A DNA stretch of 64,000 nucleotides from Candidatus Zhuqueibacterota bacterium (lineage in GTDB: Bacteria > Zhuqueibacterota > Zhuqueibacteria > Residuimicrobiales > Krinioviventaceae), in contig JAFGSB010000134.1 of the NCBI GenBank assembly GCA_016934825.1, positions 1 through 64,000 of the forward strand, given 5' to 3'. A program made the translations under genes and the position numbers. The stretch's first letter is position 1. Each line of letters starts with the position of its first letter. This document shows, piece after piece, positions 14,237 to 32,914 of the stretch. The notes beneath the pieces are model-generated. The model had not been told where the DNA came from. It saw nothing but the letters and a program-made list of their open reading frames with translations, and searched no databases.

Positions 14237-15910
14237 ATGGTAAAATCCATACAAACATTACATATTTCAAGCCAGATAAATGATAAATCATCCGATTTCG
14301 ATCGGATTTTTATTTTACCCAAAAGAACGGATGTCTGCTTATCGGGCAAGCAGAAAATTCTTATTCGTTCATATAATGCGGTATCCGAGCCGGTTGTATT
14401 ACTCGCTTTTAAAATTTCAGAAAAAGAGGACTCGGGCCTGCAAATCGATTTTTCAGATACGGATCGACAGAATACAGCGGTTTTATTTATTCAATCAACG
14501 GATTTGGGTTTACGGTTTGATATCAGTGTTCAAGCCCGGGAACCTGTATGGTTGATTGAATGGCAATTGACCGGATTTGACTTTGACGAGATCATTATTC
14601 CCGCACTGGGAGGGCAGTCCATATCGAATGATATGCCGGAAGAGACAACGCTTTCCTTCAAGTACCCTTTCTGGTGGAACGCGCAATTCGCCATCGGCAT
14701 GAAAGAAAATTCAGGTTTGTATATTTATTCGCGGGAGACCGATCCGAATTTAAAATTCCTCCGCATTGGTCGTAATAATGGCCGTTTCGAAATATCCTAT
14801 GGATTTGAAGCGCAGGCCGTGGAAAAATCGAATAGTTTACAGGCCACCTGGTTTATGGATGGATTCGAAGGCGACTGGAAGATTGCCGTAAACAGGCACA
14901 GGGAGTGGATGGAAAAGGCTTTTCAACTGCAGCCCTTGAGCAATAATTCTTTTTTCCCCCGGTGGATGGAAAAAATAAACTTTATCCTTGAAATTTGGGG
15001 AGCGAGAAAAGATTGGAACGAGCCCCTGCATACATACCCGCAAATGGAAAAACGTCTGCAGGAGTTCAGCCAGATGCATGATCCCGAACAAACCCTGATT
15101 TATTTAGCAGGGTTTGCGGAACATGGTATCGATTCCAACGCGCCGGATTACAATCCGGGTTCTTTAATGGGCGGTGAAGCACAGTTCAAATCATTAGTAG
15201 ACAGGGCTCACTCGCTGGGTTACAGGGTCATGATCCACACAAATATTCTAGCGATGACTCTTCATCACCGTCTTTACGCAGAATTTCAAAAATACCAGGT
15301 CATCGACGCATTTGGCCGTCCGCAATACTGGGGTCTGGATATTGACGGCGACTGGTTGACCGAACCGTATTTTGCCTATATAAATCCCGGATTCGAAGAA
15401 TGGAGTGAACTGATGATCCGGGTTATCGGCCAACTGATTGACAAATTCAGTGTCGATGCGGTATTTCTCGACCAGACCCTGCTTGCATTTAATGTCAGCC
15501 GGGGACCGAATTTTCTGCAAGGTATGCGGGATCATATTAAACGGTTACAACGGGCATTTCCGAACATATTGTTTGCCGGGGAAGGAATGCATGAACATAT
15601 TGTCAATCCTCTGCCCGTTGCCCAGATACATGGTATCGACAGTATTGCCGAGGTCCATGGTCTGGAGGGGAACATGCTCTGGCGCAAAGCGCATCCGGTG
15701 TCGACGTATCTGTTCGGCAAATATGTCAAATTTACCGCGCATTTACTGACCAAACATCCGTCGAACCCGCTGTTTGAATTTCAGGAAGATGCATACCGGC
15801 AGTTAGGTATACTTCCGGCGCTTTGTTTATATAATTACCGCCAAAAGATGGATTTACCGGCGGTAAAAAAAATGATAAAACGGGCAAAAAAATTGACCGA
15901 GAACAGTTAA
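14237..15910 (+). CDS. Unclassified TIM-barrel glycosidase-like protein, cytoplasmic
   Basis: 557 residues, no signal peptide. Residues 1-230 look like a beta-sandwich that ends with the 'FEGDWKIAVNRHREWMEKAF' linker seen in several glycosidase families. From about residue 245 a (beta/alpha) barrel follows, with 'DAVFLDQTLL' and 'ILFAGEGMHEH' at strand ends; Asp and Glu in these are candidate catalytic residues. I cannot assign a GH family. The start at 14237 has AGG 6 bases before it and avoids overlap with the upstream gene; ATG 14219 is also in frame. Context implies action on an imported oligosaccharide. Confidence 0.6.
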   Translation: MVKSIQTLHISSQINDKSSDFDRIFILPKRTDVCLSGKQKILIRSYNAVSEPVVLLAFKISEKEDSGLQIDFSDTDRQNTAVLFIQSTDLGLRFDISVQAREPVWLIEWQLTGFDFDEIIIPALGGQSISNDMPEETTLSFKYPFWWNAQFAIGMKENSGLYIYSRETDPNLKFLRIGRNNGRFEISYGFEAQAVEKSNSLQATWFMDGFEGDWKIAVNRHREWMEKAFQLQPLSNNSFFPRWMEKINFILEIWGARKDWNEPLHTYPQMEKRLQEFSQMHDPEQTLIYLAGFAEHGIDSNAPDYNPGSLMGGEAQFKSLVDRAHSLGYRVMIHTNILAMTLHHRLYAEFQKYQVIDAFGRPQYWGLDIDGDWLTEPYFAYINPGFEEWSELMIRVIGQLIDKFSVDAVFLDQTLLAFNVSRGPNFLQGMRDHIKRLQRAFPNILFAGEGMHEHIVNPLPVAQIHGIDSIAEVHGLEGNMLWRKAHPVSTYLFGKYVKFTAHLLTKHPSNPLFEFQEDAYRQLGILPALCLYNYRQKMDLPAVKKMIKRAKKLTENS

Positions 15911-15994: not shown

Positions 15995-16921
15995 ATGAAA
16001 TTGGGTTTTTTAACCGCATGTTTACCGCAATTGGGATTGGAAGAAATTGTCGAATGGGCGTCCGGGAACGGATTTCAAATGCTGGAACTGGCGGCATGGC
16101 CCGTGGATTCGGACCGTGATTATAAGGCGCGTCAGATCGATGCGGCGAATTTTACAAACGATGATGCAAAATGGGTAAAGGATTTGTTTGCAAAATATGA
16201 TCTGGGTATTTCCGCAATGGCATATTATGATAATAACATTCACCCCGATATGAACAAGCGAAACAGTTATATTGCCCATCTGAAAAAAGTCATCGATACC
16301 GCGGCAAAACTCGATGTGGAACTGGTCGGAACATTTGTCGGCAGCCGGCCGGATAAATCCCCGACTGAAAATTTAAAAGAAATAGGCAAAGTGTTCCGGG
16401 AACTGGTCAAATATGCCGGGGACAAGGGCGTTAAACTGATGATCGAAAACTGTCCGATGGAAAACTGGGTGCAATTCGGTTTGCCCGGGAATTTTGCCTA
16501 TTCGCCGGAATTATGGGAAACTTTATTCAACGAGGTTCCGGATAAAAATTTCGGTTTGAACATGGACCCGTCTCATCTGTACTGGCTGGGGATCGATTAT
16601 ATTCTGGCGGTTAAAGATTTTGCGCCCAGAATTTTTCATGCCCACGCCAAGGATACGGAAGTTCTGGCCGATGGAGAATACAAATACGGTATATTCGGGC
16701 GTCAGATCGAGCCGGTCCCCTGGAAATCGGGCTGGTGGAGATACCGTATGCCGGGACTGGGAGAAATTGACTGGAACAGGTTCATTACGACTTTGCAGGA
16801 AACGGGATATGATTTTGTCCTTTCCATTGAACATGAGGACCCGATATGGGAAGGTTCTGTTGAAAAAGTTAAATCCGGTTTGATTTTGGGATATAAACAC
16901 CTGTCTCAATTTGTTGTATGA
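15995..16921 (+). CDS. Sugar phosphate isomerase/epimerase (AP endonuclease 2-like TIM barrel)
   Basis: 308 residues of the xylose-isomerase-like TIM barrel family. Metal-binding positions are visible as Glu in 'LMIENCPM', Asp in 'LNMDPSHLYW', His in 'IFHAHAKDTE' and Glu in 'LSIEHEDP'. Members isomerise or epimerise keto-sugars, inositols and related compounds. No signal peptide is present. GGGAGAA lies 7 bases before the start. The presence of this gene between a glycosidase-like gene and a GH42 gene fits monosaccharide processing in the cytoplasm; the substrate is not evident. Confidence 0.8.
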   Translation: MKLGFLTACLPQLGLEEIVEWASGNGFQMLELAAWPVDSDRDYKARQIDAANFTNDDAKWVKDLFAKYDLGISAMAYYDNNIHPDMNKRNSYIAHLKKVIDTAAKLDVELVGTFVGSRPDKSPTENLKEIGKVFRELVKYAGDKGVKLMIENCPMENWVQFGLPGNFAYSPELWETLFNEVPDKNFGLNMDPSHLYWLGIDYILAVKDFAPRIFHAHAKDTEVLADGEYKYGIFGRQIEPVPWKSGWWRYRMPGLGEIDWNRFITTLQETGYDFVLSIEHEDPIWEGSVEKVKSGLILGYKHLSQFVV

Positions 16922-17033: not shown

Positions 17034-19169
17034 ATGCGTCGGCTATTAAAAGACGAATATATACCCTTTGGCACCCAATATTATCGCGCGCCGTCGCCGC
17101 ACCGGCAGGATTGGGAACGCGATTTAGAGAACATCGGCAAACTGGGCATGAACATGTTGAAATTTTGGGTTCAGTGGCGATGGAACCACCCCGAAGAAGA
17201 TAAATTTTATTTTGATGATATCGATAAATTGATGGATATCGCCTATGCCAATAAATTAAAAGTTATGCTGAATACCATATTCGATGTTGCACCGGCCTGG
17301 ATTTATCGGAAATACCCCGATGCTTCGATGCTTACGCTTGACGGACGCCGGATCGGTCCGCAAACGCAGCCGCACCGGCAGATCGGCGGCCTTGGTTACT
17401 GTTTTAACCATGACGGTGTAATGGAACATTTTTTCAAATTTTTGCAGGTGACAATTCAACGTTATAAAGATCATCCGGCGCTGGCAATATGGAATGTCGG
17501 CAGTGAACCGGAACTGACCAGCAGCATGGCGGAAATGCGGCAGTACGCGGATAACGCGGAGAAAATGGGAGACATGCTGTGCTTTTGTCCCAATTGTCAG
17601 AAAAAGTTCCGTTTGTGGCTGCAGGAAAAATATACCGATATCGAACGACTGAATGAAGCCTGGAACCGAAATTACCAGTCTTTTGACGACGCGGAGATAC
17701 CGATCACCCGCAATACATTTAATGATATGATCGACTGGCGGATGTTTTTTGTATACACCCTGGGTGAAAATGTCAAACGCCGTTTCCGGGTCGCACAGAC
17801 GGAAGATAAGGGCAAACACCCGTTAATGTGTCATCATGTTTTTATTCAGGGATTCCCGCTGGTTTCAACAGCGAACGATCCCTGGAATGTCGGTCAATAT
17901 GGCGATTTGCACGGATTTACGCAGATGGATGACGCCATGATGACTGATATTCTAAGGTCCTGCGCCAAGGACAAGCCCGTCATTTCGGCCGAAATGCTGA
18001 TGCTGCCGGGGTACACGCTTGACCTGCCGCCCGTAATTGACGAGAATGATATCAAAAGGTTTATCTTTACGGGGATTGCCGGTAATCAAAAAGGATTCAT
18101 TTTCTGGCAGTACCGGCCCGAAATTCTCGGGCGTGAAGCGCCGACATGGGGATTGTCATTTCCTGACGGTTCGGAAACCCCGTGGCTGAAATCCTGGGCG
18201 ACAGTCGGCCGCGTTGTGCAAAAACACGCCGCGTTTTTACTGGATGCAAAGCCTGTAAAGGCGGAGGTCGCGTTGATTTATAACCCGGAAAATCAAATTT
18301 TTGCCTGGATGTCGACCCAAAATGAAAAATCGGCAACTGATTCCTTGCTGGGAACGCACAAAGCGCTGTATCAGCATAATTATAATATTGATTTTATTCA
18401 CCCGAAAGAATTTGATTTGAATATTTTGAGTAATTATAAAGTTGTTTATATTCCTTTCCCTTACTGCCTGAATGAAAAAATGTGCCGGGCCCTGGAAGCA
18501 TGGGTAAAAGCGGGTGGTGTTTTGATCGGCGAGAGCTATTTCGCCGGCTGGAACATGGAGCGCGGATTTCATGAAAAAATTGTACCGGGTTACGGACTGC
18601 ACCGGGTTTTCAAGACCAGACAGGGTGTGGTAAATCCGGCGGGAGAAGATGGCGTTGAGATTCGCCTGTGTAAAGATATGCCTTACCTGCACAGTGGTGA
18701 AATATTTACCGGGGCGCTGGTGCAGGAGTCTCTGGTATGCGAGGGATCGGAAAAAATTGCCGAGTTTGCCGACGGCTCTCCGGCGGCGACATACGCGCAA
18801 TATGGAAAGGGCAAAGCCGTTCTGATCGGTTCTTATATCGGGCTTGTTTTTCAAAGACAGGGGGCAACCAATAACGGTGAGTTTATTGCCTCGCTGGTTC
18901 GGATGGCTTCGGATATACAGCATCCGCAGGTCGATAACAATGTTAAAGCGCGTGTGGATGTTTTGCAATCCGATAAACATGAAATCATGATCATTGTACA
19001 AAATTTAACCGGTCGGGCGGTTGAAGTAACGGTGAGGATTCCTTTTATTCAACCGAAAACCTGCAAAGAAATTTTTATGGATACGGATTTAACTTTATCC
19101 CGGTATGATGATGGCGTATCAACTGTCATCAAAATGCAGGCAAAGGAGGTAAAAGTTTTTCGTGGTTAA
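17034..19169 (+). CDS. GH42 beta-galactosidase-like enzyme, cytoplasmic
   Basis: 711 residues, no signal peptide. The barrel shows GH42 features: 'MNMLKFWVQWRWNHPEE', an acid/base Glu158 in 'IWNVGSEPEL', a cysteine cluster 'CFCPNCQKKF' followed by 'LNEAWNR', and a nucleophile candidate Glu320 in 'PVISAEMLML'. The trimerisation-type domain starts near residue 405 ('VALIYNPENQIFAWM'), and a C-terminal beta domain follows. GH42 enzymes cleave terminal beta-galactosides, some alpha-L-arabinopyranosides. A GCAGGAG lies upstream of the start. The downstream MFS gene overlaps its last 8 bases, so the two are likely co-translated. Confidence 0.85.
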   Translation: MRRLLKDEYIPFGTQYYRAPSPHRQDWERDLENIGKLGMNMLKFWVQWRWNHPEEDKFYFDDIDKLMDIAYANKLKVMLNTIFDVAPAWIYRKYPDASMLTLDGRRIGPQTQPHRQIGGLGYCFNHDGVMEHFFKFLQVTIQRYKDHPALAIWNVGSEPELTSSMAEMRQYADNAEKMGDMLCFCPNCQKKFRLWLQEKYTDIERLNEAWNRNYQSFDDAEIPITRNTFNDMIDWRMFFVYTLGENVKRRFRVAQTEDKGKHPLMCHHVFIQGFPLVSTANDPWNVGQYGDLHGFTQMDDAMMTDILRSCAKDKPVISAEMLMLPGYTLDLPPVIDENDIKRFIFTGIAGNQKGFIFWQYRPEILGREAPTWGLSFPDGSETPWLKSWATVGRVVQKHAAFLLDAKPVKAEVALIYNPENQIFAWMSTQNEKSATDSLLGTHKALYQHNYNIDFIHPKEFDLNILSNYKVVYIPFPYCLNEKMCRALEAWVKAGGVLIGESYFAGWNMERGFHEKIVPGYGLHRVFKTRQGVVNPAGEDGVEIRLCKDMPYLHSGEIFTGALVQESLVCEGSEKIAEFADGSPAATYAQYGKGKAVLIGSYIGLVFQRQGATNNGEFIASLVRMASDIQHPQVDNNVKARVDVLQSDKHEIMIIVQNLTGRAVEVTVRIPFIQPKTCKEIFMDTDLTLSRYDDGVSTVIKMQAKEVKVFRG

Positions 19170-20457
19170 CAGCATAATGGTAGAACAATATACAGAGAAA
19201 TATGTTAAACGTAACTTTGTTTCGAACTGGCTGGACGGCTCTTTTTACGCATTTGCGATGAGTTTTGTATCCAATGTAACGGTAGTTCCGGTATTTGTAA
19301 AATATCTTGGCGGCAGTAATGTTGCGGTCGCCCTGATATATGTGATCTGGAATATCGGTTTTAATCTGCCGCAAATATTTATATCAAACTATGCCGGCAG
19401 GCTGGAATTCAAAAAAAGATTTGTTTTGAAAACCGCTTTTATTCAGAGAGTTCCCTGGTTGCTGATGGCGTTATTCAGCTTTTTTATCGTCAGCCGGATC
19501 AGCCGGACATCGGGATTAATAATGTTCTTTGTGATATTTGCCATTACAGCAATAACCGGAAGCATAAATATGCCGGCGTGGTTTGATCTGGTGGCCAAAG
19601 TCACCCCGGTGCATCTGCGCGGCCGGTTGTTCGCCGCGCGTTCAATTTTAGGCTCAGTGCTTGGTATAACCGGAGGATGGGTGGTCGTGCACGTTTTGGA
19701 AAATATTAATTATCCCTATAGTTTCGGGCTGCTTTTTTTGTTAACCTTTATTGTAACCCTGATTTCCTATATTTTTGTTGCCATGATCAGGGAATATTAC
19801 CCGAATTCGAAAAAAAAGGCTATACCGCATTACATATATTTCAGGCGTTTGACAAAAATCCTGAAACGTCATCACAATTTTCGAAATTTTATCATTGCGG
19901 ACGCACTGTTAAAAATCGCGCTGATGGCAGATGTATTTTATTCCGTACACGCGTTGGAGAAATTCTCCTTATCCAACAGTACGGTCGGGAAATTTACCAT
20001 TGTAATGATGGTGAGTATGATTGCGGGCAATCTTTTATTTGGTCAAATTGCCGACCGGGTCGGCCACCGTATAAACCTTGTCATTGCTTCCGTTGCCACG
20101 ACCGTATCCTGCGTATTTGCGTTTTTTTCAACGCATGTTTATTTATACGCCATTGTATTTGTCGGTTCCGCATTTACGGTACTGTTGGTCAATATTTCGC
20201 GTCTGTCGATTATCTCGGAATTATGTAATGAGGAGGACCGGCCAACCTATGTGGCGCTTGCAAATCTTATGACTTCTCCGTTCATTTTATCGAGTTTGCT
20301 GGGCGGATGGATTGCCAACAGTCAGGGTTATAATATAGTTTTTATCATATCGGGCCTGTTTGCGTTGTGCGCTACTTTTTGTTTGATTTTTTTTGTGAAG
20401 GAACCGAGAACAACGAAAGAAAGGCCCATGATTCCGAACCTGAAAGTGACTCCATAA
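19162..20457 (+). CDS. MFS transporter
   Basis: 431-residue integral membrane protein with about 12 hydrophobic segments; the loop 'VHLRGRLFAARS' after segment 4 and 'FGQIADRVGHRINLV' after the central loop are major facilitator signatures. GTG at 19162 is preferred as start because a full AAGGAGGT lies 11 bases upstream, inside the GH42 gene; the ATG at 19177 would be too far from it. The coupling with GH42 suggests it imports the galactosidase substrate or exports a product; direction and ligand are unknown. Confidence 0.85.
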   Translation: MVNSIMVEQYTEKYVKRNFVSNWLDGSFYAFAMSFVSNVTVVPVFVKYLGGSNVAVALIYVIWNIGFNLPQIFISNYAGRLEFKKRFVLKTAFIQRVPWLLMALFSFFIVSRISRTSGLIMFFVIFAITAITGSINMPAWFDLVAKVTPVHLRGRLFAARSILGSVLGITGGWVVVHVLENINYPYSFGLLFLLTFIVTLISYIFVAMIREYYPNSKKKAIPHYIYFRRLTKILKRHHNFRNFIIADALLKIALMADVFYSVHALEKFSLSNSTVGKFTIVMMVSMIAGNLLFGQIADRVGHRINLVIASVATTVSCVFAFFSTHVYLYAIVFVGSAFTVLLVNISRLSIISELCNEEDRPTYVALANLMTSPFILSSLLGGWIANSQGYNIVFIISGLFALCATFCLIFFVKEPRTTKERPMIPNLKVTP

Positions 20458-20477
20458 CAATTATATTGGAGAAATTT

Positions 20478-21860
20478 ATGAAAAAGTCTCTGTTAATAAA
20501 TTTAGTTGTTCTGATTTTTTTATTTACGATTTGTGTATATAAGTCATTGGCGCAGCTTTCCGAGGCGCCGCCGAATCCCGAACCGGATGCACGGTATAAA
20601 TCGGATATATTGTTAATTGTCGCTCATCCCGATGATGAAACGGCCGTCGGCAGTTACTTGGCCAAAGCGGTATTTGATCTGGGGAAAAAAGTCGCGATAA
20701 TATATATCAATCGCGGCAGTGAGGGTGGTAATACTACGGGAAACGAACAGGCGGATGCAATGGCGGCGATGAGAGAGATTGAGGTGCGCCGTGCCGTAGC
20801 GGAATTTGGTATTTTTAACGTCTGGATATTGAATGGTAAGGATACACCCGGTCAGGATGTTCTGCGTTCGTTGAGCGTTTGGAAGCATGGCGATATCCTT
20901 GAGCAGGTGGTCAGGCTGGTTCGTCTCACCCGACCCGAGGTGATCCTGACCTGGCTGCCGCATTTTTCAATCGGTGAAAATCACGGCGACCACCAGGCTT
21001 CAAGCGTTATCGCCATTGAAGCATTCGATATGGCGGGCAATCCGACTGTCTTTCCCGCGCAGGTCATTACACCGCGTGAACGGTACGATATAAATAATTT
21101 TACGGAAGGACTGCGACCCTGGCAGCCGAAAAAACTGTATTTTTTTTCGGACGCTTCACATCCTTTTACGGCCGAAGGCCCGGAGTTCGATATCTCCGAA
21201 ATATCACCTTCACAAAACGTCGCCTATTATAAATTGGCCGCCAGACTGCATATGCCGCATTTGACCCAGGGCGATGTGTCCGATATTGCTTTGGAAGCAC
21301 AAAAAACAGGTGATTATAAAAATTTTATTGATTGGATGTCCTCATTCAAACTGATATTTGGTAAATCCGTCGTGAAATGTAATCCCGGTGGAGATGTATT
21401 TGAGGGTATTACGGAATCGGTCCATCCGTTTACGCCGGTGAGCGGCTATGTCGCGGAACAACATAAAGGTGTAACAATGGAATTCGGAGGTCCGTTTTTA
21501 TTTTACCGTGATTTCTGGAAAGCACATGATATCGGGCATATCGGTAAAATCTTTGAACCGGAAATCGGTATATCATACGGCGGATACCTGCATATTCCGC
21601 TGGTGTTGCGGAACGGCACGTCCGATACGGTGTCCGTTAGTTTAACGGGTGCATTCCCCGAAGGCTGGCAGGAGTCGGCCGGGTCCGCTATATATACTCT
21701 TTCCCCCGGAAAAGTGTACCCGGTACAGACGTTTGCTTTTGCCCCGGACGAAGGAGTTGATGAGGACCAATTCATTGTCTGGACCGCTAAAATGAAAAAT
21801 AACGTAATCGGTTCACTCAGGATGAAAGTCAGTTTATCAGAGTGGACTTTACCCCAATAA
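20478..21860 (+). CDS. Exported PIG-L family deacetylase
   Basis: 460 residues with signal peptide ending 'YKSLAQ'. The zinc-binding 'AHPDDE' motif begins at His50, and 'ENHGDHQAS' supplies the later His172, both standard for LmbE/PIG-L de-N-acetylases. About 150 C-terminal residues form a beta-sandwich. PIG-L enzymes remove acetyl groups from N-acetylated sugars and related amines. The start at 20478 has TGGAGA 6 bases upstream and heads the signal peptide; the frame is open further upstream inside the MFS gene but without reason to start there. It may deacetylate a decorated glycan fragment in the periplasm. Confidence 0.85.
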   Translation: MKKSLLINLVVLIFLFTICVYKSLAQLSEAPPNPEPDARYKSDILLIVAHPDDETAVGSYLAKAVFDLGKKVAIIYINRGSEGGNTTGNEQADAMAAMREIEVRRAVAEFGIFNVWILNGKDTPGQDVLRSLSVWKHGDILEQVVRLVRLTRPEVILTWLPHFSIGENHGDHQASSVIAIEAFDMAGNPTVFPAQVITPRERYDINNFTEGLRPWQPKKLYFFSDASHPFTAEGPEFDISEISPSQNVAYYKLAARLHMPHLTQGDVSDIALEAQKTGDYKNFIDWMSSFKLIFGKSVVKCNPGGDVFEGITESVHPFTPVSGYVAEQHKGVTMEFGGPFLFYRDFWKAHDIGHIGKIFEPEIGISYGGYLHIPLVLRNGTSDTVSVSLTGAFPEGWQESAGSAIYTLSPGKVYPVQTFAFAPDEGVDEDQFIVWTAKMKNNVIGSLRMKVSLSEWTLPQ

Positions 21861-21909: not shown

Positions 21910-23577
21910 ATGAATCGCCGATCTTTTATCAAAAAAACCTGCTGTGCAGGTCTTGGTACAACCGTTTTGACGCAGGCCGCTTTGTCCAACGCGCTTGTGC
22001 TGACGGACAGCAAAACCGAAAAGCCAACGGAACAGGGAGAACTGGTATTTACACCTGCCTATGTCCAGCGCGGAGAAGGTCCGCACCTGCTTGACTGGGC
22101 ATACGCCAGCGATATAAACCATGATTCGTTCTATTCGAATATTTCATCGTCAAAAGACGGTGTGAAAATTTCGGATGTCAGGGGACAAAATAAGTTCGGC
22201 ATCAATGTCCGCTGGAACGTGGAAGGATTCGGTTATATTTATATCACGGCGGATAACGGCGGCGAATTTTATGAATTACCCCGGGCAGGCTCCACAACAA
22301 TCCTAAACCTGAACTTCGAGTTGGCCAAAAGCCGTGTTTTACGGAACCGGAAACGTCTTAAAGAACTGACACAAAACGGCTGGGAACCCTCCCGGCAGGT
22401 AACGGGTTACCAGGATATTGCCGACTTTTATTATCAGGATGCAAACCGCAAGCAAGGCAATCAAGAATTATGCGGAAAATTGTCACAACAAGCTTTATAT
22501 TTTGCCATGCTCGTGGGTGAAAGCATGGAACTGGACCGGGCCCGTTTCGATATTCGGAAAAACGGTTATCGCCCGGATTTTTTTATCGGCTGCGACGCGC
22601 GGGGATATTACCAGATGGACCAGGACCTTTTCCTGGAACGGTTTACGGGTCTTTTTAATTACGCGACGATCACCCATTACCTGCTGAGCGGCTATTTTCA
22701 GGATTTCGAACCGATTGAAGGCCGGAAACAATTTGATTTGAGAACGGCGGTCCTGAAAACGTTGAAAAAACATAATATAACGGTAGAAGGACGACCGCTG
22801 TTCTGGTTTTACCGGACAACCACGCCGGACTGGCTGAGAAATAAAAAGTATGATGATCTGCTCAGGTATGTGGAAAGCCACACGCGTACGGTTATGAGCC
22901 ATTACGGCGACCAGATGTACGCCTGGGAGATCGTTAATGAACTGCATGACTGGGCCAACGAAGTTCAGTTATCCCCGGAACAGACCGTGGAACTGACAAA
23001 GCTGGCCTGTGACGTGGCCCGCGACACCAACCCGAAAGTCAACCGGCTGATCAATAACTGCTGTCCTTTCGCTGAATACGTGCAGTTAAAAAAATGGGGT
23101 GAACTGGACGCAAAATACCCGCAGCGGACACCGCACAAGTTTATGCGCGACCTGGTAGACGCCGGTGTGGATTTTACAATTACCGGACAGCAGATGTATT
23201 TCCCGTACCGGGATTTATCGGACACGATACTGCTGGTGGAACGATTCCGTGAATTCGGCAAACCGGTGCAACTCACGGAAGTCGGCGCCCCGTCAGGCCC
23301 GAGTCGGGAATCTCTTCTGTCCGGCACGTCTGAGTTGCCAAAAGAACCTTATATATGGCGCCGGTACTGGGATGAAGAATTACAGGCGGATTGGCTGGAA
23401 GGTGTTTATACGCTCGCTTACAGCAGACCGTGGATCGAAGCGGCGAACTGGTATGACTTTGTCGATCCGCATTCTTTTATCATAAACGGGGGTTTGCTCA
23501 GATCTCCAAAAGGCGAACCCAAAGCGGCTTACAACCGGTTGCTCAAATTACAGAACGAATGGAAATCGTTGGGTTAA
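21910..23577 (+). CDS. GH10-like protein 1, with Tat-type signal
   Basis: 555 residues. The start has AGGGA upstream and the N-terminus 'MNRRSFIKK' followed by a hydrophobic stretch is a twin-arginine export signal. Residues about 40-170 are a beta-rich module ('VEGFGYIYITADNGGEFYEL') shared with the next two genes. The barrel keeps the acid/base Glu344 ('WEIVNELHDW') and nucleophile Glu457 ('QLTEVGAPSG') of GH10. Residues normally holding xylose in subsite -1 seem replaced: 'THY' at 255-257 and 'GRPLFW' (Arg295) stand where GH10 xylanases have Glu-Asn-Lys and a 'GHxLxWH' segment. Xylanase activity should not be assumed. Confidence 0.75.
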   Translation: MNRRSFIKKTCCAGLGTTVLTQAALSNALVLTDSKTEKPTEQGELVFTPAYVQRGEGPHLLDWAYASDINHDSFYSNISSSKDGVKISDVRGQNKFGINVRWNVEGFGYIYITADNGGEFYELPRAGSTTILNLNFELAKSRVLRNRKRLKELTQNGWEPSRQVTGYQDIADFYYQDANRKQGNQELCGKLSQQALYFAMLVGESMELDRARFDIRKNGYRPDFFIGCDARGYYQMDQDLFLERFTGLFNYATITHYLLSGYFQDFEPIEGRKQFDLRTAVLKTLKKHNITVEGRPLFWFYRTTTPDWLRNKKYDDLLRYVESHTRTVMSHYGDQMYAWEIVNELHDWANEVQLSPEQTVELTKLACDVARDTNPKVNRLINNCCPFAEYVQLKKWGELDAKYPQRTPHKFMRDLVDAGVDFTITGQQMYFPYRDLSDTILLVERFREFGKPVQLTEVGAPSGPSRESLLSGTSELPKEPYIWRRYWDEELQADWLEGVYTLAYSRPWIEAANWYDFVDPHSFIINGGLLRSPKGEPKAAYNRLLKLQNEWKSLG

Positions 23578-23611
23578 TTGTACCGCAAAAAATTTTGAGG
23601 ATTTTATTTAT

Positions 23612-25153
23612 ATGGCAAAACAGGAACTTTTATTTAAACCGGTCTTTGTACAGAAAGGCCGGGGACCCCATTTGGCGCAGATGGTGTACCTGACGGATGA
23701 AAAAGGCGACACATTCCGGGCGGATATCAGGATTGACAATTCGGGAATTAAAATTGTGAATACCTACGACCATCACAAATTCGTTCTCTATGTCCGCTGG
23801 AATGTGGAAGGTTACGGGTATCTATATATGCCTGCCGACAATGGCGGCGAATTTCATGATTTATCCGGGTCCGGCACAGGTGTCTGTAATTTGAATTTCG
23901 AACTGGCCAAAACGCGGATTGTCAGGAACCAACAGCGCCTGAAATTATTCGCGGAAACAGGTTATAAGCCGTCCGTTGAAGTGAAGACAATGCTTGATCT
24001 GGCATTGACATTATTGAATGATGCTGACAGAAAAGTTAGTGATTTGTTACTATGCGGTGAATTGTCGCAAAAATCATTGATGTACGCACTGATCGCCAGC
24101 GATATGATGGAAATGGAAAAGCTCCGTTTTGATCTGAAAAATCAGTCTCCCCGTTCGGATTTTTTCGCGGGTTGTGATTCCCGCGGTTACCTGCAGATGG
24201 ACAAGGATATATTTTGGGAACGGTTTACGGAATTGTTCGGTTATGCAACCATTACCCATTATTTAAAAGGCGATGTTATAAATTTCGAACCGGAAGAAGG
24301 TAAAAAGCAGTTCGCCGAGCGTGACAAACTGGTTGATGAACTGTTAAAACGAAATATTGTCGTCGAAGGCAGACCGCTGTTCTGGTCGCATTCCTGGGTC
24401 ACGCCGGACTGGCTGCGGCAAAAGTCTTTTGACGACGTTTTGATATACCTGGAAAAACACATCCGAACCGTCCTCGGCCATTATGGCGACCGTATCCGGG
24501 TCTGGGAGGTGGTCAATGAACTGCACGATTGGGCGAACGAACTGCAACTGAATCATGAACAAACCATAAAACTGACGCGGCTGGCCTGCGAAACGGCCCG
24601 GGAAGTGAATCCGAAAATCCGCCTGTTAATTAACAACTGTTGTCCGTTTGCCGAATACGTGCAGGGCGGCAAATGGACGCAAATTCCGGCAAAGTATCCG
24701 CAGCGGACACCGCACCAGTTTATCACACAGTTAATTGAAGCAAATGTGGATTTTGATATTGTCGGTGTGCAAATGTATTTTGTCAAACGGCCGCCCGCCG
24801 ATAGTATATTATTAATGGAACGCTATGCCGATTTCGGGAAAAAAGTACAAATTACCGAAGTCGGCTCGCCTTCGGCCGGCATTACCCTCGAATTTGATGC
24901 GCCGGACGAAAACTTTTCAATTTATCCCTGTGAATGGCGAAGACACTGGGATGAGGACTTGCAGGCGGACTGGCTTGAATATATTTTTTCCTTTGCCTAT
25001 AGTAAACCCTGGATTGAAGCGGCGAACTGGTACGATCTGGTTGACCCGTACAGTTACTTGAAGAGCGGCGGGATATTGCGTTCCCCGAAAGGTGAAAAAA
25101 AGACCGCGTTCGACCGGTTAGGATTTTTACTTCAGCAATGGCAAAAAAAATAA
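23612..25153 (+). CDS. GH10-like protein 2, no export signal
   Basis: 513 residues, second of three tandem paralogues. It begins directly with the shared beta-rich module ('VEGYGYLYMPADNGGEFHDL') and has no signal peptide, unlike its neighbours, so it should stay in the cytoplasm. Catalytic glutamates are kept at Glu303 ('WEVVNELHDW') and Glu416 ('QITEVGSPSA'). The same changes around the active site are present ('ITHYL', 'GRPLFWSHSWVTPDWL'). GAGGA lies about 11 bases upstream of the start. It may act on imported oligosaccharides of the type cut outside by the exported copies. Confidence 0.75.
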   Translation: MAKQELLFKPVFVQKGRGPHLAQMVYLTDEKGDTFRADIRIDNSGIKIVNTYDHHKFVLYVRWNVEGYGYLYMPADNGGEFHDLSGSGTGVCNLNFELAKTRIVRNQQRLKLFAETGYKPSVEVKTMLDLALTLLNDADRKVSDLLLCGELSQKSLMYALIASDMMEMEKLRFDLKNQSPRSDFFAGCDSRGYLQMDKDIFWERFTELFGYATITHYLKGDVINFEPEEGKKQFAERDKLVDELLKRNIVVEGRPLFWSHSWVTPDWLRQKSFDDVLIYLEKHIRTVLGHYGDRIRVWEVVNELHDWANELQLNHEQTIKLTRLACETAREVNPKIRLLINNCCPFAEYVQGGKWTQIPAKYPQRTPHQFITQLIEANVDFDIVGVQMYFVKRPPADSILLMERYADFGKKVQITEVGSPSAGITLEFDAPDENFSIYPCEWRRHWDEDLQADWLEYIFSFAYSKPWIEAANWYDLVDPYSYLKSGGILRSPKGEKKTAFDRLGFLLQQWQKK

Positions 25154-25210
25154 ATAATGCAGCTTATTTTATAGTTGTTGTGCCTGCGATAGAATTATTT
25201 TGAGGATTTT

Positions 25211-26863
25211 ATGAGAGAATTATCCAGAAGAAGTTTTTTTAAAACCGGCGCTGCGGCAGCCGCATCAATGGCACTGCCATTCACGGCAGCCGGTTTGAAT
25301 TCAGTTTTTGCACAAACAAATCATGAACTGATTTTTCGTCCCTATCCCCATCCCTGGATGCCGGAATTCACTTACGCCTATGCGGCAGATGAAAATGAAG
25401 ATCCGTTCAAATCTTCGATTTCGGTAAATCGTCAAGGCGTTGTGGTACCGACTGATTTCGGCGACCGCAGATTTTCAGTTAACGCGCGCTGGTTCGTTGA
25501 AGGTTTTGGATATATATGGCTGTCGGCGGACAATGGCGGTGAATATTATTCCTTAAAGGATTTTAAAAACGGAAATCCTTTGAATTTGAATTATGAATTC
25601 GCCAAGAGCCGCATTTTCCGTAACCGCGAAGTAAAAGAGCGATATAATAAAAACGGTGTGATCTTTTCCAGCGAAGTGGAACATTTGTTTGACCTGTCGG
25701 AGGAATTATTCAAAGAGGCGTCCAAAGTAACTAATAGCGGGGAAAAATGCGCCGGCTTATCGGACAAAGCCCTGTTTTATGCGTTGAATACGGGGGAAAA
25801 AATTGAACTGGAAAAAGCGGCCTTTGATATCATCAGGTATAACCGCCGTGACAATGTATATTTTGGCTGTGAAACCAGGCAGTATATATGGGCAAGATCC
25901 GAAGAATTTACCAAACGTTTTGTCGAGTTGTTTAATTTTGCTACAGTTACCCATTACGTGTGGGATACCTGGTATGAAATATTTGAGCCCCGTGAGGGTT
26001 ATTATAACTGGGGAATAAAAGATAATATTGTCAACTGGCTGACGGAGCACAACATCACCATCCAGGGACGTCCGTTGTTCTGGTTTCACCCGGTTGTGAC
26101 CCCGGATTGGCTTAAGGAAAAGAATTTTGATGAACTGAAAAAATATGTGGACCGTCATGTTAAAGATGTGGTCGGTCATTATGGGGATAAAGTATTACAA
26201 TGGGAAGTCGTCAACGAGTACCATGACTGGGCCAATATTCATAATCATTCACCGGAACAGATTACGGAAATCGTCCGACAGGCCTGTGACAGGACCGCTG
26301 AAATCAATCCGAAAGTCGTCCGTATCATCAATAATTGTTCTCCGTTTTCAGAATACGCGGCATGTGGGAGAAGCGCACGACAAAAGGAACCGTCAAAGCG
26401 TCCGTTAAGGTCTACCCGTAAATTTATCGAGGACCTTGAGCAAGCCGGTGTGGATTATGATGTACTCGGAATTCAAGTCTATTTCCCGCGCCGCGATCTA
26501 TCCGATATTGTGCGGATGCTGGAACGGTTTGAAAAATTCAACAAGCCCATATATATCACGGAAATTGGCGCAACATCTGGTCCCACGAAAAAGTCGCTGG
26601 ATGACGATAAAATGAATATTTCGCAGGAACCTTATGAATGGCACCGGCGCTGGGATGAGAAATTACAGGCGGATTGGCTGGAACAGGTTTATACATTGTA
26701 CTATAGCAGGCCCAATATCAAAGCGATTAACTGGTACGATTTTGCCGATTTTCGAACGTTCATTGTTAACGGGGGATTAGTGACTGAAAATTGTACGCCA
26801 AAACGTTCATTTTATCGATTAAAAAATTTACTGGCATCGTGGAACCGATTGCCCAAATCCTGA
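25211..26863 (+). CDS. GH10-like protein 3, with Tat-type signal
   Basis: 550 residues, third tandem paralogue and the most divergent. The N-terminus 'MRELSRRSFFKTGAAAAA' is a twin-arginine signal with cleavage near 'VFAQ'. The beta-rich module ('VEGFGYIWLSADNGGEYYSL') and barrel follow, with Glu336 ('WEVVNEYHDW') and Glu451 ('YITEIGATSG') as acid/base and nucleophile. 'VTHYVW' and 'GRPLFWFHPVVTPDWL' repeat the unusual active-site pattern. GAGGA lies 6 bases upstream of the start. The conserved changes in all three copies argue for a shared, non-standard substrate. Confidence 0.75.
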   Translation: MRELSRRSFFKTGAAAAASMALPFTAAGLNSVFAQTNHELIFRPYPHPWMPEFTYAYAADENEDPFKSSISVNRQGVVVPTDFGDRRFSVNARWFVEGFGYIWLSADNGGEYYSLKDFKNGNPLNLNYEFAKSRIFRNREVKERYNKNGVIFSSEVEHLFDLSEELFKEASKVTNSGEKCAGLSDKALFYALNTGEKIELEKAAFDIIRYNRRDNVYFGCETRQYIWARSEEFTKRFVELFNFATVTHYVWDTWYEIFEPREGYYNWGIKDNIVNWLTEHNITIQGRPLFWFHPVVTPDWLKEKNFDELKKYVDRHVKDVVGHYGDKVLQWEVVNEYHDWANIHNHSPEQITEIVRQACDRTAEINPKVVRIINNCSPFSEYAACGRSARQKEPSKRPLRSTRKFIEDLEQAGVDYDVLGIQVYFPRRDLSDIVRMLERFEKFNKPIYITEIGATSGPTKKSLDDDKMNISQEPYEWHRRWDEKLQADWLEQVYTLYYSRPNIKAINWYDFADFRTFIVNGGLVTENCTPKRSFYRLKNLLASWNRLPKS

Positions 26864-26886: not shown

Positions 26887-28035
26887 ATGACATCAAAAGA
26901 ACGATTAATCATTGCCATGAATTGTGGTCAACCCGACCATGTTCCGGTCAGTCCCGATATTTCCGTAATGGTGCCGGACAAGCTTGACGGACGACCTTTT
27001 TACGACATACATCTGGACGGCCGGGAACATTTCGGCTGGACTTCCGCCACGCATGGTGAAGTATATGTACGGGCCGTCAGGCATTTTGATATGGACGGTT
27101 TTTACATGTACGGAGGGTTAAAACAAATTAAACCTCAGGACCGCCCGGAATTTGAGGAAGAAATATTGGATGTCCCGGAAGGAAAACTGGTTAAACGGGT
27201 CTGTCATACTGCGCTGGGGGAATTAACGGAACAGGAACTCTTCTTTGCGGATGAACCGCCGTGGCGCAGTGAAAAACCGATTAAGGATTTACAAAAGGAT
27301 TTTGACAGGATGAAACTAATGCTGGGTGAATCCGGATGGGAATGGGAAAAGGAATATCGCGACATGCATGTGATGGGTGATCTGGGTGTGTATCTGGGAA
27401 TGGTTCCGGTTTTTCAGGATTGGTACTTTCACAACCGTCAGGGTGGTTTTGAACAGATGATAATGGATTTTTTAGGCGACGAAGAACAGGTCGAAAAAAT
27501 TCATGAGTACTGGATGGAATGGGCATTGGCCAATGTCAGGGCCATGCTTGCCGCCAAAGCTGATGTCATTATGCTGGGGGGCTCCAGCGCCAGTCTCAGT
27601 GTTAGTTCGCCGGAATTTTTCCGAAAATTTGAACTGCCTTTTGTTCAAAAAGCTTCCGTTTTATGTAAAGAGGCCGGTATTCCTTCACATTTGCATGTTT
27701 GCGGTCGTTCATGGCAACTTGTGCAAATGGTGGGAGAAGAATCGGAATTGACATCCATGGAACCCATTGAAGAACCGCCGTCCGGTAATGTCGATTTAAA
27801 AGAAGCCAAACAACGGTATGGTAAAAAACTCTGTTTAAAAGGTAATATCAATACCACTAATTTTATGCTGATGGCCACGCCTCAGCAGGTGGAAGACAAA
27901 TGCAAGGCATTAATAGATGCCGCTGCGGAAGGCGGCGGTTTTATTTTGTCGACCGGCGATCAATGCGGACGTGATACACCCGAAGCAAACCTTTTTAAAA
28001 TGGTTGAAGTAGCTAAAACATACGGGAGATATTAG
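26887..28035 (+). CDS. Uroporphyrinogen decarboxylase-family protein (MtaA-like methyltransferase fold)
   Basis: 382 residues of the URO-D superfamily, which includes HemE and cobalamin-dependent methyltransferases. 'TSKERLIIAMNCGQPDHVPV' is the typical N-terminus. 'SHLHVCGRSW' gives the His-x-Cys pair and 'STGDQCGRDTPEANL' a later Cys, which together resemble the zinc site of MtaA/MtbA-type methyltransferases rather than HemE. No heme pathway or corrinoid protein gene is adjacent. It lies 23 bases after the GH10-like cluster and 2 bases before the GH13 gene. A role in removing methyl groups from methylated sugars is possible but only inferred. Confidence 0.75.
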   Translation: MTSKERLIIAMNCGQPDHVPVSPDISVMVPDKLDGRPFYDIHLDGREHFGWTSATHGEVYVRAVRHFDMDGFYMYGGLKQIKPQDRPEFEEEILDVPEGKLVKRVCHTALGELTEQELFFADEPPWRSEKPIKDLQKDFDRMKLMLGESGWEWEKEYRDMHVMGDLGVYLGMVPVFQDWYFHNRQGGFEQMIMDFLGDEEQVEKIHEYWMEWALANVRAMLAAKADVIMLGGSSASLSVSSPEFFRKFELPFVQKASVLCKEAGIPSHLHVCGRSWQLVQMVGEESELTSMEPIEEPPSGNVDLKEAKQRYGKKLCLKGNINTTNFMLMATPQQVEDKCKALIDAAAEGGGFILSTGDQCGRDTPEANLFKMVEVAKTYGRY

Positions 28036-28037: not shown

Positions 28038-30389
28038 ATGTCAACTCGTAACATGATTTTTGTTTTGTTATTTTGCCAGTGTATGATTACTTCATTGTCG
28101 GCAAAAATTGTAATTAATAAAAAAGATGCTACGGTATGGGAACAGGACCAGACCATAACCGGTAAAATTGTGGGATTCAATGCGGATCAGGGTATTTTGT
28201 ATCACAATAGTGAGCCGGTTTCATTCGATATTTCGCCTGCAGATCAAACATTCTCGGTGCAGATTTTTGTCGAATATGGTGTAAACAGGATTTACGTACA
28301 GGCTGACAGTAATGGAACAACGGTCACTTCTCCAATTCTTAACCTGACACTCGGGTATAAACCCAAACCGGAAATGTATATCTGGGCAACGGTGGCAGAC
28401 CGGTATGTAACATTACACAGCAAGGTCATTGATAATCCCGGCGGGACATCATTACAATATTATTGGGAACAGGATCCGGCAAATCCGGCCGCGGTCAATC
28501 TTGTCGTTAATAATGACAGTACCGCAAATTTTGATATTCCGGACGGTTCGCCTTTTGGAGAATATTATTATGATTTGTGGGTTGTTAATGAAAATTCAGA
28601 CTCGTCCCGGGCCAGAACATTCGTTACGGTCTCGGAGGAAGGTATATTGCCCTTTCAGATCAAAACCGACCACGCCGACTGGATAAATAAAGCGATTATT
28701 TATGAAATCACTCCCTCTATATTTTGCTGGAACAGCCAATTCCCGGATATTACTGAAAAAATTCCGGAGATAAAGGAACTGGGAGTGACCACGATATACC
28801 TGCAACCGGTGAATAAAACACACGGCTATGGCCACGGATATGATTTTATTGATTTTTTCTCGATCCGCGACGATCTGGGAACAGAAAAACAACTGGGGAA
28901 ATTAATCTCTACAGCGAAGAGTTACGGTCTGCGGGTCCTGTTTGATTTTACTCCGAATCATTGTTCAAAATACCACCCTTATGTGCTGCATGCGGCTCAA
29001 TATAGAGAGAATTCACATTATTTTCATTTTTTTCAGAGAGAATTAGACAATGTGCCTTATTCTGATATATATAAAAAAAATGCAGATGGTTTTGTGTATT
29101 ATCTCTGGTCAGGTCTGGTAAATTTAAATTATCACAATCCCGAGGTGCAGAGATGGATGACTGAGGCCCTGAAATACTGGATCAACCGGTTTGATATTGA
29201 CGGCTACCGTCTCGATGCCATGTGGGGGGTGAACGCACGGAATCCGGAGTATACCCAACAACTGCGTTTATCTTTAAAAAGGATGAAACCGGAATTATTA
29301 TTATTGGCCGAGGATAAAGCGACCTGGCCGATGGTATTCGAAGAACGGTTCGACGTCGCTTACGATTGGATGCCGGAAGAAAACTGGATTTCACACTGGT
29401 CATGGCAAACCTATTGGTCTGAAACCGGATACCCCACAATTTTTAATGATCCGACCGAAGGGAACCGCGATGACCTGTTACGAACTGCAATAACAAATGA
29501 CGGCAACGGTTATCATCCGCGTGCAAAAATTTTACGTTATATGGAGAATAATGATTCAGAGCGATTTATCGCGTTTCATAATCTCAATCAAACCAAAATG
29601 GCCTCCGCGTTTATGTTTTCCATACACGGGATACCGTTGCTGTTTAACGGTCAGGAATCGGGTAATAAAATCCATCCTTATATGCCGTGGGGTATATATA
29701 ATTCATTTGAGACGATAAAAGAAACCGATGAATACGGACTTTTTAATCATTATAAGTATCTGTGTTTTGTACGTAAAAATTTACCCGCTTTAACCGGCGA
29801 TAATTTTGAACAAGTAACAGTCAGTTCGAATAAACCTGTGTATGTTTACCGGCGCTGGGAAGGAGAACAACAGGTATTCGGAGTGATGAATATGTCCGGC
29901 AATTCGGCAAAGTCCGAAATTTCCCTGCCGATAGAAAAAATGAATATCGATTCCACGCAAAATTGTTATTTAACGGATGTGTTGACCGGTGATGTAATTA
30001 CCGCTACCGGCTCCGAACTGCAGAATATGGTTATTCAGTCAGGTCCCTATAGTGTAAAACTTTATGTTGTAGCAGACTCTGTATTTACCGTCAATATTGA
30101 CAGAACTAATTATTCTTCGCAGCCGATTGAGCTCCGATTGGAACAAAATTACCCGAATCCGTTTAACGCATCAACTACTCTGCAATATAGTGTCCCTGCA
30201 GACTGTATTGTACATATTAAATTATTCAACATTTTGGGACGTGAAATAAAAACACTGGTCAATGACTTTAAACAGCGTGGTAATTATCAGATCACTTTTG
30301 ACGCACGTGATCTTGCCAGCGGTATTTATTTTTACCGGTTGGAAGCGGACGGACAGTATAAAATCAAAAAAATGACCCTTTTGAAGTAA
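28038..30389 (+). CDS. Secreted GH13 alpha-amylase-family enzyme with sorting tail
   Basis: 783 residues: signal peptide, N-terminal beta modules (to about residue 210), GH13 barrel, C-terminal sorting domain with 'LEQNYPNPFNASTTLQYSV' and 'GIYFYRLEADGQ'. GH13 regions are readable: 'DFTPNHCS' (I), 'GYRLDAMW' with nucleophile Asp393 (II), 'LLLAEDK' with acid/base Glu425 (III) and 'MENNDSERF' with Asp506 (IV). In region IV the usual His before Asp is Asn505. GH13 enzymes act on alpha-glucans, so this is an outlier in a hemicellulose-type locus. GGGAGA lies upstream of the start. Confidence 0.85.
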   Translation: MSTRNMIFVLLFCQCMITSLSAKIVINKKDATVWEQDQTITGKIVGFNADQGILYHNSEPVSFDISPADQTFSVQIFVEYGVNRIYVQADSNGTTVTSPILNLTLGYKPKPEMYIWATVADRYVTLHSKVIDNPGGTSLQYYWEQDPANPAAVNLVVNNDSTANFDIPDGSPFGEYYYDLWVVNENSDSSRARTFVTVSEEGILPFQIKTDHADWINKAIIYEITPSIFCWNSQFPDITEKIPEIKELGVTTIYLQPVNKTHGYGHGYDFIDFFSIRDDLGTEKQLGKLISTAKSYGLRVLFDFTPNHCSKYHPYVLHAAQYRENSHYFHFFQRELDNVPYSDIYKKNADGFVYYLWSGLVNLNYHNPEVQRWMTEALKYWINRFDIDGYRLDAMWGVNARNPEYTQQLRLSLKRMKPELLLLAEDKATWPMVFEERFDVAYDWMPEENWISHWSWQTYWSETGYPTIFNDPTEGNRDDLLRTAITNDGNGYHPRAKILRYMENNDSERFIAFHNLNQTKMASAFMFSIHGIPLLFNGQESGNKIHPYMPWGIYNSFETIKETDEYGLFNHYKYLCFVRKNLPALTGDNFEQVTVSSNKPVYVYRRWEGEQQVFGVMNMSGNSAKSEISLPIEKMNIDSTQNCYLTDVLTGDVITATGSELQNMVIQSGPYSVKLYVVADSVFTVNIDRTNYSSQPIELRLEQNYPNPFNASTTLQYSVPADCIVHIKLFNILGREIKTLVNDFKQRGNYQITFDARDLASGIYFYRLEADGQYKIKKMTLLK

Positions 30390-30394: not shown

Positions 30395-31429
30395 ATGAAT
30401 ATTTTGGTTATCGGTGGAACCGGATTTATCAGCGGCAGCACCGTTAAAATTTTGTTGGAAAAGGAACATCATGTTACGGTATTTACCCGTGGTAAATCCA
30501 AAAATATGCTGCCGGAGCATCCTAATCTGAGAATGGTATATGGAGACCGGAACAGGATTTCCGATCTGGCCGGTGCGGTCGGTTATCGAATTTATGATGC
30601 GGTTTATGATTTTGTCGCCTACTTACCCCGGGAATCCGAGTTAGCCATACGTGTTTTACGCGGAAAAACAAAACGGTTCATTCATTGTAGTACCGTCTCC
30701 GTCTATATGGTTTCAAATGAAATACAATGTCCGATAACAGAGGACCAGGCCAATGCTCCGCTCATGCCGTTCCAGCCCCGTAATCCGTTTGGTATGGATT
30801 ATGGCATATTAAAACGTCAATGTGAAGACGTGCTGTGGCGGGCTCATGACGAGAAGCAATTCCCTGTGAGTATGCTTCGTCCACCTTTTGTCAGTGGTCC
30901 CGGAGACCCGGGAGCAAGGGATTATTTTTGGATAGAGCGAATCCGTGATGGTCACCCAATACTGGTCCCCGGTAACGGCGATTTTGTATTTCAGCAGGTA
31001 TACGTGCAGGATGTCGCAAAGGCTTTCGTCAGTCTACTGGAGTATGAGGCTTCCATTGGTCAGGCTTACAACGTCGCCGCTGAAGAAATTTTTTCGTTAA
31101 ATGATTATTTGAAATTATTAGGTCGTTTGCTGGAACGTAATGTGGAGCTTGTGCATGTGCCCCAGGACGTTTTTGACGGGCTGCCGATAAGCACAAATCC
31201 TTTCGGAGACGTATTTCCGTTTAATACGAGGAGAAAAGCCGTTTTCAGCCTGTTAAAGATAAAAAAAGATCTTCATTATATCTCGACTCCATTTAAAGAG
31301 TGGTTGCCGTTGACCATCGACTGGTACCTGAACGACTTTGGAAAGCATTCCACGGGATACGACCGGCGTGACCAGGAACTGGATTTTATTCAAAAATGGC
31401 GGCGTGCTCAATCAGAATGTGTGAAGTAA
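30395..31429 (+). CDS. NAD-dependent epimerase/dehydratase family protein (SDR)
   Basis: 344 residues, extended short-chain dehydrogenase. 'ILVIGGTGFISGS' is the nucleotide-binding loop; 'HCSTVSVY' and 'YGILKRQCE' give the Ser/Thr and Tyr-x-x-x-Lys catalytic set. Such proteins epimerise or dehydrate nucleotide sugars, or act as isoflavone-reductase-like or mRNA-binding relatives. It starts 5 bases after the GH13 stop with only a weak ribosome-binding site, suggesting translational coupling. The substrate is not evident. Confidence 0.8.
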   Translation: MNILVIGGTGFISGSTVKILLEKEHHVTVFTRGKSKNMLPEHPNLRMVYGDRNRISDLAGAVGYRIYDAVYDFVAYLPRESELAIRVLRGKTKRFIHCSTVSVYMVSNEIQCPITEDQANAPLMPFQPRNPFGMDYGILKRQCEDVLWRAHDEKQFPVSMLRPPFVSGPGDPGARDYFWIERIRDGHPILVPGNGDFVFQQVYVQDVAKAFVSLLEYEASIGQAYNVAAEEIFSLNDYLKLLGRLLERNVELVHVPQDVFDGLPISTNPFGDVFPFNTRRKAVFSLLKIKKDLHYISTPFKEWLPLTIDWYLNDFGKHSTGYDRRDQELDFIQKWRRAQSECVK

Positions 31430-31600: not shown

Positions 31601-32914
31601 ATGAAAGTTAAAATCATTATATTGCTTGTTGTTGTTTTGAGCCTGCAAATTTTTTCAAGCTGCGGCGTGAAACGGGAAAAAGATTTAAATGCGGTTACTG
31701 TCACCTTCTGGCATAGTTTTGTTGCATCAACCCATCCGGCATTAAAAGAGCTGATAAAAAAGTTTGAAGAGGAATACCCGGACATTCATGTGAAAGCGCA
31801 ATACATACCGACCGGTGACGCGCTTGTTCAGAAACTTATTACCGCGGTACAAAGCAAAACAGTCCCCGATATTTCCTGGATCCATTCCGATTTCCTGGAC
31901 AAACTGGTATTGGCCGGGTCCATCTACAGGATGGAAGAGTTTATTTCTGGTGCAAACGGTTTGTCACAGGACATTCTGGACGATATATTCCCGGCATTAT
32001 TACAATCCGCTTCCTGGCGCGACACGCTGTACGCGATACCGATGGAAGCGACCAGTCTGGCCCTGCTTTATAACCGGAGCGCTTTTCGCAAAGCCGAGCT
32101 GGACCCGGATTCGCCGCCGCAAAATTGGGATGAACTGCAAAAATACAGCAAAATTTTAACGATTGATGAAAATCATGATGGGATATACGATCAATACGGT
32201 TTTTACGTTCCGGTTTTCCCGGCGTCGGGCTCGCTGAGTATTTGGATGGTCCTGCAGTGGACACCGTTTTTATGGCAGGCAGGTGGACAGATCATAAATA
32301 CGGAACAAAGCAATGTTCTTTTCAACAGTGATGCGGGCGTTCAGGCGCTCACCATGTGGAAAAACATATATGATGAATTGAATCTGAAAACATTTACATT
32401 ATCTCATGACATGGGTTTTGCGGCAGGCAGACTGGCAATGATTTTGGATGGTCCCTGGAATCTGCCCCGTTACCGTAACATAAAAGAGCTTGACTGGGCC
32501 GTGGCCCCGCTTCCTGCCGGACCGGTTCAAAGGGCGACTTACCTGGCCGGGGAACATCTCGCAATATTCCGGCAGAGCAGGAATCCAGCGGAAGCATGGA
32601 CTTTTATAAAATGGATTTTAAAGCCGGAAATTCAGGCCATGTTTTCCATTCAATCGGGCTATCTGCCGGTTCGAAAATCTGTTTTAACGTTAAGGTCTTA
32701 TCAGGATTATCTTGAAACAGATCCGTATCTCAGAGCTTTTGTCGAACAGATGCAATACGCCCGGGGGCGGCAGCCGGTTGATTATTTTCATACGGAAATA
32801 AATCAAATTATTGCCGAGACCATAGAAAAAGTGATACTGGGCGGTGGCGATCCCGAAACCGAACTGAATAAAGCGGCAATGGAATCAAATCAACTGCTGC
32901 GGTCGAAACAGTAA
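31601..32914 (+). CDS. ABC sugar-binding lipoprotein (family 1 extracellular solute-binding protein)
   Basis: 437 residues. The signal ends in a lipobox-like 'QIFSSC' with Cys21 as the lipidated residue. 'VTVTFWHSF' , 'LIKKFEEEYPDI' and 'LTIDENHDGIYDQYGF' are typical of maltose/glycerol-3-phosphate-type binding proteins. It should capture oligosaccharides in the periplasm for an ABC importer. AGGTGGAAAG precedes the start. A MalK-type ATPase follows at 33557, but no MalF/MalG-type permease is in the window. Confidence 0.85.
   Translation: MKVKIIILLVVVLSLQIFSSCGVKREKDLNAVTVTFWHSFVASTHPALKELIKKFEEEYPDIHVKAQYIPTGDALVQKLITAVQSKTVPDISWIHSDFLDKLVLAGSIYRMEEFISGANGLSQDILDDIFPALLQSASWRDTLYAIPMEATSLALLYNRSAFRKAELDPDSPPQNWDELQKYSKILTIDENHDGIYDQYGFYVPVFPASGSLSIWMVLQWTPFLWQAGGQIINTEQSNVLFNSDAGVQALTMWKNIYDELNLKTFTLSHDMGFAAGRLAMILDGPWNLPRYRNIKELDWAVAPLPAGPVQRATYLAGEHLAIFRQSRNPAEAWTFIKWILKPEIQAMFSIQSGYLPVRKSVLTLRSYQDYLETDPYLRAFVEQMQYARGRQPVDYFHTEINQIIAETIEKVILGGGDPETELNKAAMESNQLLRSKQ

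Follow-up and report, generated by a model that had tools for sequence, protein, structure and literature searches.

Three adjacent genes in a stretch of 64,000 nucleotides of contig JAFGSB010000134.1, from a Candidatus Zhuqueibacterota bacterium (the whole stretch is called the window here), resemble GH10 endoxylanases, and they raise the question of whether they encode xylanases, decaying copies of such enzymes, or a related family with a different substrate, as an earlier note on this DNA had proposed. We find it probable, from comparisons of sequence, that P0001, P0002 and P0003 are retaining glycosidases of a distinct GH10-derived family that act on a substrate other than xylan, recognise the same sugar in subsite -1 and are split into Tat-exported and leaderless members. 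The clade, the invariant residues, the conservation of the array and its locus, and the pattern of leaders are direct observations.

21910..23577, + strand: P0001, GH10-like paralogue of group B, 555 aa, with a Tat-type signal (NRRSF); from ORF, Pfam and family tree
23612..25153, + strand: P0002, GH10-like paralogue of group D, 513 aa, signal peptide absent; from ORF, Pfam and family tree
25211..26863, + strand: P0003, GH10-like paralogue of group E, 550 aa, with a Tat signal (SRRSF; Pfam TAT_signal); from ORF, Pfam and tree

The three open reading frames are intact and stand in tandem, separated by 34 and 57 bp, with a pairwise identity of 40-54% among their products. All score above the cut-off of 22.1 bits for Pfam GH10 (PF00331; 54.7, 80.6 and 83.2 bits for P0001 to P0003), which bears out the three GH10-like paralogues that the earlier note had placed at 21910-26863; ordinary GH10 proteins of the same phylum mostly score well over 100 bits. 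The GH10 match is confined to the C-terminal part, and weak matches to GH113, GH53 and Glyco_hydro_cc were also obtained. No other GH10 gene was found in the genome.

When a profile of the family was aligned with canonical GH10 by hhalign (probability 99.3%, E 3.4e-20, 315 columns), GRPLFW was paired with GHTLVW, with a two-residue insertion after GRPLFW, NE with NE, QMY with QGH and TE with TE. The placement of THY on PEN was read from a MAFFT alignment, which agrees with hhalign elsewhere. The changes originally seen by eye are thus upheld by both methods, and misalignment by eye is ruled out. Six residues (numbered as in P0001 throughout) are invariant in 87 of 87 aligned family copies: Glu344, Glu457, Asn343, Gln428, Arg295 and Tyr430. 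Four of their codons are:

22792..22794, + strand: Arg295, replacing the conserved GH10 His of GHxLxWH; from alignment
22939..22941, + strand: Glu344, predicted acid/base (WEIVNE); from alignment
23197..23199, + strand: Tyr430, replacing the GH10 His of QxH; from alignment
23278..23280, + strand: Glu457, predicted nucleophile (QLTEVG); from alignment

Retention of both catalytic glutamates, first noticed in three proteins, therefore extends to 87, which rules out decay or pseudogenes; the residue pattern is conserved over many genomes, so the change is not due to chance or decay. The change of Gln-x-His, read by eye as Gln-Met-Tyr, proved right in the same copies as regards its invariant Gln and Tyr. 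The replacement of GHxLxWH by GRPLFW holds for the first His, which is invariably Arg; the second His is missing at its aligned place, but P0002 and P0003 have a His one residue later, and Phe also occupies this position in several canonical GH10 proteins from the window's phylum.

Thirteen subsite residues of T. maritima XynB were taken from PMC6163442 and followed through the family. The equivalents of Asn152, Glu153, Gln228 and Glu259 are kept in every copy and that of Trp108 nearly always, whereas His104 and His230 have become Arg295 and Tyr430 in every copy. On the -2 side, Glu67, Asn68, Lys71 (which also serves -1), Gln111 and Trp300 are replaced or missing, and the position of Trp308 is usually aromatic, with Trp in the majority of group B copies and Phe, Tyr or His elsewhere. 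The GH10 set for subsite -1 (His, Trp, Asn, Gln, His, Trp) is thus incomplete in the family, both His being replaced, and the set for -2 (Glu, Asn, Lys, Gln, Trp) is not retained; the latter is partly missing in the xylanase 8b73 too. By comparison, the positions of Arg295 and Tyr430 are His in 14 of 14 other GH10 proteins compared. The earlier note had taken THY, in place of Glu-Asn-x-x-Lys, as a mark of subsite -1; the motif is indeed absent, but its Glu and Asn are mainly -2 residues and only its Lys serves both subsites (PMC6163442). Loss of this motif as proof of a new substrate is ruled out, since 8b73 is without it as well. Judged from the alignments, Arg and Tyr are a better mark of the family, and the departure from GH10 in the pocket is greater on the -2 side than the earlier note assumed. 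In the clan GH-A families GH5, GH1 and GH2 a Tyr lies on strand 6 near the nucleophile, and this residue may have been regained when the His of Q-x-H became Tyr.

An AlphaFold2 model of P0001, built from an alignment of 85 sequences (mean pLDDT 91.8), consists of strands (residues 44-133), long helices (134-218) and a barrel (225-552), giving two domains:

22036..22575, + strand: N-terminal domain of P0001, residues 43-222, beta strands followed by three long helices, holding ADNGGEF; from model
22582..23565, + strand: GH10-like barrel of P0001, residues 225-552; from model, fold search and hhalign

In the model, Glu344 and Glu457 lie at the ends of barrel strands 4 and 7, as GH10 requires, and in a whole-fold comparison the best PDB match was 8b73, followed by other GH10 xylanases. 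The N-terminal module shared by the three copies corresponds to the N-terminal domain of the model, which is predicted with pLDDT 96.6 when taken alone. Searches of Pfam, PDB sequences and PDB folds returned no significant match to it, and its assignment to a known carbohydrate-binding module was rejected for want of a convincing match in the three.

Searched with patterns from the N-terminal domain, which relatives devoid of that domain would escape, the family was found in 27 loci of the contig collection and in further whole genomes. Its hosts are Ignavibacteria, KSB1, Neomarinimicrobiota, Calditrichota, Kryptoniota and a few others, and within the window's phylum 8 of 82 genomes carry it. 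Arrays lying whole within a contig comprise 2-5 genes, most often 3-5. A tree of 89 copies resolves five groups, A-E, which on this evidence are old orthologous groups; support for B is less sharp than for C, D (n=17) and E (n=20), and E is the last gene in every array not cut off by a contig end. Distances within the groups run parallel over genomes (r 0.59-0.88, permutation p <=0.002), the pattern that inheritance or transfer of the whole array in one piece would give. One group B copy (L048:5788-7560), in an array that has no A, carries a Tat leader like that of group A and looks like a fusion after deletion.

A quick tree was built with 50 further GH10 rows, among them proteins from the window's phylum and three enzymes of solved structure; in it the family forms a single clade with full SH-aLRT support on a stem of 1.94 changes/site. 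The separate clade with a consistently altered site that the earlier note had looked for is thus present, with the same changes in every copy. The nearest rows (8b73, L010 and L013) are also long branches, which leaves the exact sister unsure. A motif scan found other divergent GH10-like proteins of the phylum outside the clade, namely L098 (GRSLVW) and L100 (GYQIY). Several array genomes hold an ordinary GH10 in addition to the array. A plasmid search gave only weak matches, with <60% coverage and mostly annotated as xylanases, and a literature search found no description of the family; in the M. roseus genome paper, a xylan cluster is described as containing one GH10 with CBM4/9.

The copies differ in their leaders. 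A Tat motif (RRxF/L) with a hydrophobic stretch is present in P0001, P0003 and most members of groups A, B, C and E, and P0002 is without it. The leader is found in 20/20 group E copies and is absent from 17/17 group D copies, and in arrays without D it is B that is leaderless in 5 of 7 (Fisher p 0.017, the arrays not being independent). Most arrays combine at least one leaderless with at least one Tat member; two (L048 and L052) have no leaderless member. TatC is encoded in 12 of 13 array genomes, that of the window included.

The array is embedded in a conserved locus for carbohydrate degradation, which is about 25-35 kb long and lies at 7736-34657 in the window:

7736..11002, + strand: GH106-like (alpha-L-rhamnosidase family), no signal, conserved
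11125..11526, + strand: D-ribose pyranase RbsD, above NCBIfam cut-off
11598..13037, + strand: GH5/GH42-like protein, N-terminal signal-like stretch, conserved
13059..13742, + strand: D-lyxose isomerase
13762..14229, + strand: ureidoglycolate-lyase-like protein, conserved in most loci
14219..15910, + strand: DUF6259 protein, conserved
15995..16921, + strand: xylose-isomerase-like TIM barrel (sugar isomerase/epimerase), conserved
17034..19169, + strand: GH42, no signal, conserved
19162..20457, + strand: MFS transporter, conserved
20367..21860, + strand: PIG-L deacetylase-like, in some loci
26887..28035, + strand: uroporphyrinogen-decarboxylase-family protein, in some loci
28038..30389, + strand: GH13 with Por secretion tail, conserved
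30395..31429, + strand: NAD-dependent epimerase, conserved
31601..32914, + strand: ABC solute-binding protein
33557..34657, + strand: MalK-type ABC ATPase

A similar neighbourhood was seen in 19 of 19 genomes examined (11, then 8 more). Its order is GH106-like, ribokinase, RbsD, aldo/keto reductase, GH5/42-like, ureidoglycolate-lyase-like, DUF6259 and Gfo/Idh/MocA, then isomerase, GH42, MFS, (PIG-L), the array and (URO-D), and finally GH13, epimerase, GH2, cupin, aldo/keto reductase, nucleoside-hydrolase-like and ABC parts. Individual members are absent, relocated or past the contig edge in single genomes; the window's own locus is without ribokinase and GH2, among others. No GH43, GH67, GH115 or xylan esterase was found among the conserved genes of the locus in the 19 genomes. 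Ribose pyranase and ribokinase are usual there: RbsD occurs in 7/8 array genomes versus 10/74 others (Fisher p 3.6e-5, with related genomes and hence counts that are not independent), and in six of those seven it lies on the array's own contig. Proteins with no Pfam match were also noted: a conserved locus protein of about 394 aa (L074:6276-7457 and orthologues), a 786-aa protein adjoining the array in some loci (L075:11620-13977), and the products of window ORFs 4400-6625 (742 aa), which is flanked on one side by a TonB receptor (1485-4376) and on the other by a PorV-family protein (6682-7668), and 40702-42567 (622 aa). Downstream, at 34983-45432 and outside the conserved block, lie alpha-L-arabinofuranosidase-like, GH9 and GH31-PA14 genes.

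Taking into consideration the clade, the uniform changes, the kept catalytic residues, the N-terminal module and a context unlike that of xylan degradation, the proposal of a GH10-related family with a changed pocket, and not of decay, stands; the change of substrate is what we infer from them. By analogy with GH10, these enzymes would follow the double displacement of clan GH-A, in which the anomeric carbon is attacked by Glu457, Glu344 serves first as acid and then as base, and Asn343 and Gln428 hold the -1 sugar. Because the residues that read xylose at -2 have been exchanged, and Arg and Tyr occupy the places of the -1 histidines, this sugar is probably not the xylose of a xylan chain, and it is probably one sugar for all paralogues. 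Groups A-E have a common core and differ at single fixed places, which suggests that they act on different bonds, or at different chain ends, of a single complex glycan. Most paralogues would be exported by Tat, and the leaderless D (B in several arrays without D) would work in the cytoplasm with GH42, the GH106-like protein and DUF6259, the conserved locus serving to take up and degrade the oligosaccharides. Ribose pyranase and ribokinase hint at D-ribose as one product, and a ribose-containing glycan as substrate is only a lead. A stronger form of this idea, in which the family is specific for a sugar of ribo configuration (C3-epimeric), for instance a beta-D-ribopyranoside from some little-known glycan, is a long shot; it draws on the same ribose genes, on the retention of Asn343 and on the fact that residues facing O3 of the -1 xylose are among those lost from GH10.

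Could the proteins still be divergent xylanases, or enzymes of decorated xylan, whose altered residues are tolerated replacements, as the -2 motif is in AcXyn10A? Their closest match in sequence and fold is that xylanase (8b73), itself devoid of Glu-Asn-x-x-Lys, and the window has plant-polysaccharide genes downstream. However, 8b73 retains both histidines and the equivalents of Trp300 and Trp308, Arg295 and Tyr430 never vary in the family where other GH10 have His, the conserved locus offers no xylan accessory enzymes, and several array genomes have an ordinary GH10 besides; we judge this quite unlikely. That some or all copies are transglycosidases or binding proteins, as their number, the replaced -2 site and an activity that is only predicted might suggest, seems highly improbable given that the Glu pair, Asn and Gln are invariant in all groups, although this alone does not exclude transglycosylation.

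A further possibility, compatible with the non-xylan glycosidases that we favour, is that the paralogues assemble through the N-terminal domain into a single heteromer that folds in the cytoplasm, and that the leaderless D (or B) is carried across the membrane by Tat partners. The Tat pathway exports folded proteins, most arrays mix both kinds of member, B takes the leaderless place in most arrays without D, and the groups stay together and co-vary; group D may hitch-hike on a Tat partner. On the other hand, two arrays have no leaderless member, and the GH42, GH106-like and DUF6259 proteins show no signal either, so that a leaderless member needs no partner and a cytoplasmic role for D is simplest. 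We hold such a complex to be unlikely.

Pfam would call genes of this kind GH10, that is, xylanases; should the substrate of the family prove to be a different one, the ability of these phyla to degrade xylan is overestimated, and the presence of 2-5 jointly inherited paralogues of a single enzyme in a conserved degradation locus indicates a glycan whose breakdown has yet to be described. The Arg/Tyr signature and its contrast with GH10 make the question of specificity directly testable.

The named system for comparison is the GH10 endo-beta-1,4-xylanases (CAZy GH10, PF00331; XynB of T. maritima and T. petrophila, 1vbr and 3niy). The family shares with them the barrel, the catalytic Glu pair, the Asn before the acid/base, the Gln of QxH and the Trp of GHxLxW. 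It departs from them in the Arg and Tyr that stand for the -1 His pair, in the replacement or absence of all five -2 residues, in extra residues after GRPLFW, in an unmatched N-terminal domain and in its tandem arrays. AcXyn10A of Acetivibrio clariflavus (8b73), called an endo-xylanase in PMC12485897, is the best single match to P0003 (1.9e-17), the ADNGGEF domain being outside the aligned part; like the family it is without Glu-Asn-x-x-Lys, but it keeps GHPLCWH and QSH. The family is nearer in sequence to GH10 than to the clan GH-A families GH5, GH1 and GH2, and we regard it as a variant that belongs inside GH10 or next to it rather than as a novel type of enzyme.
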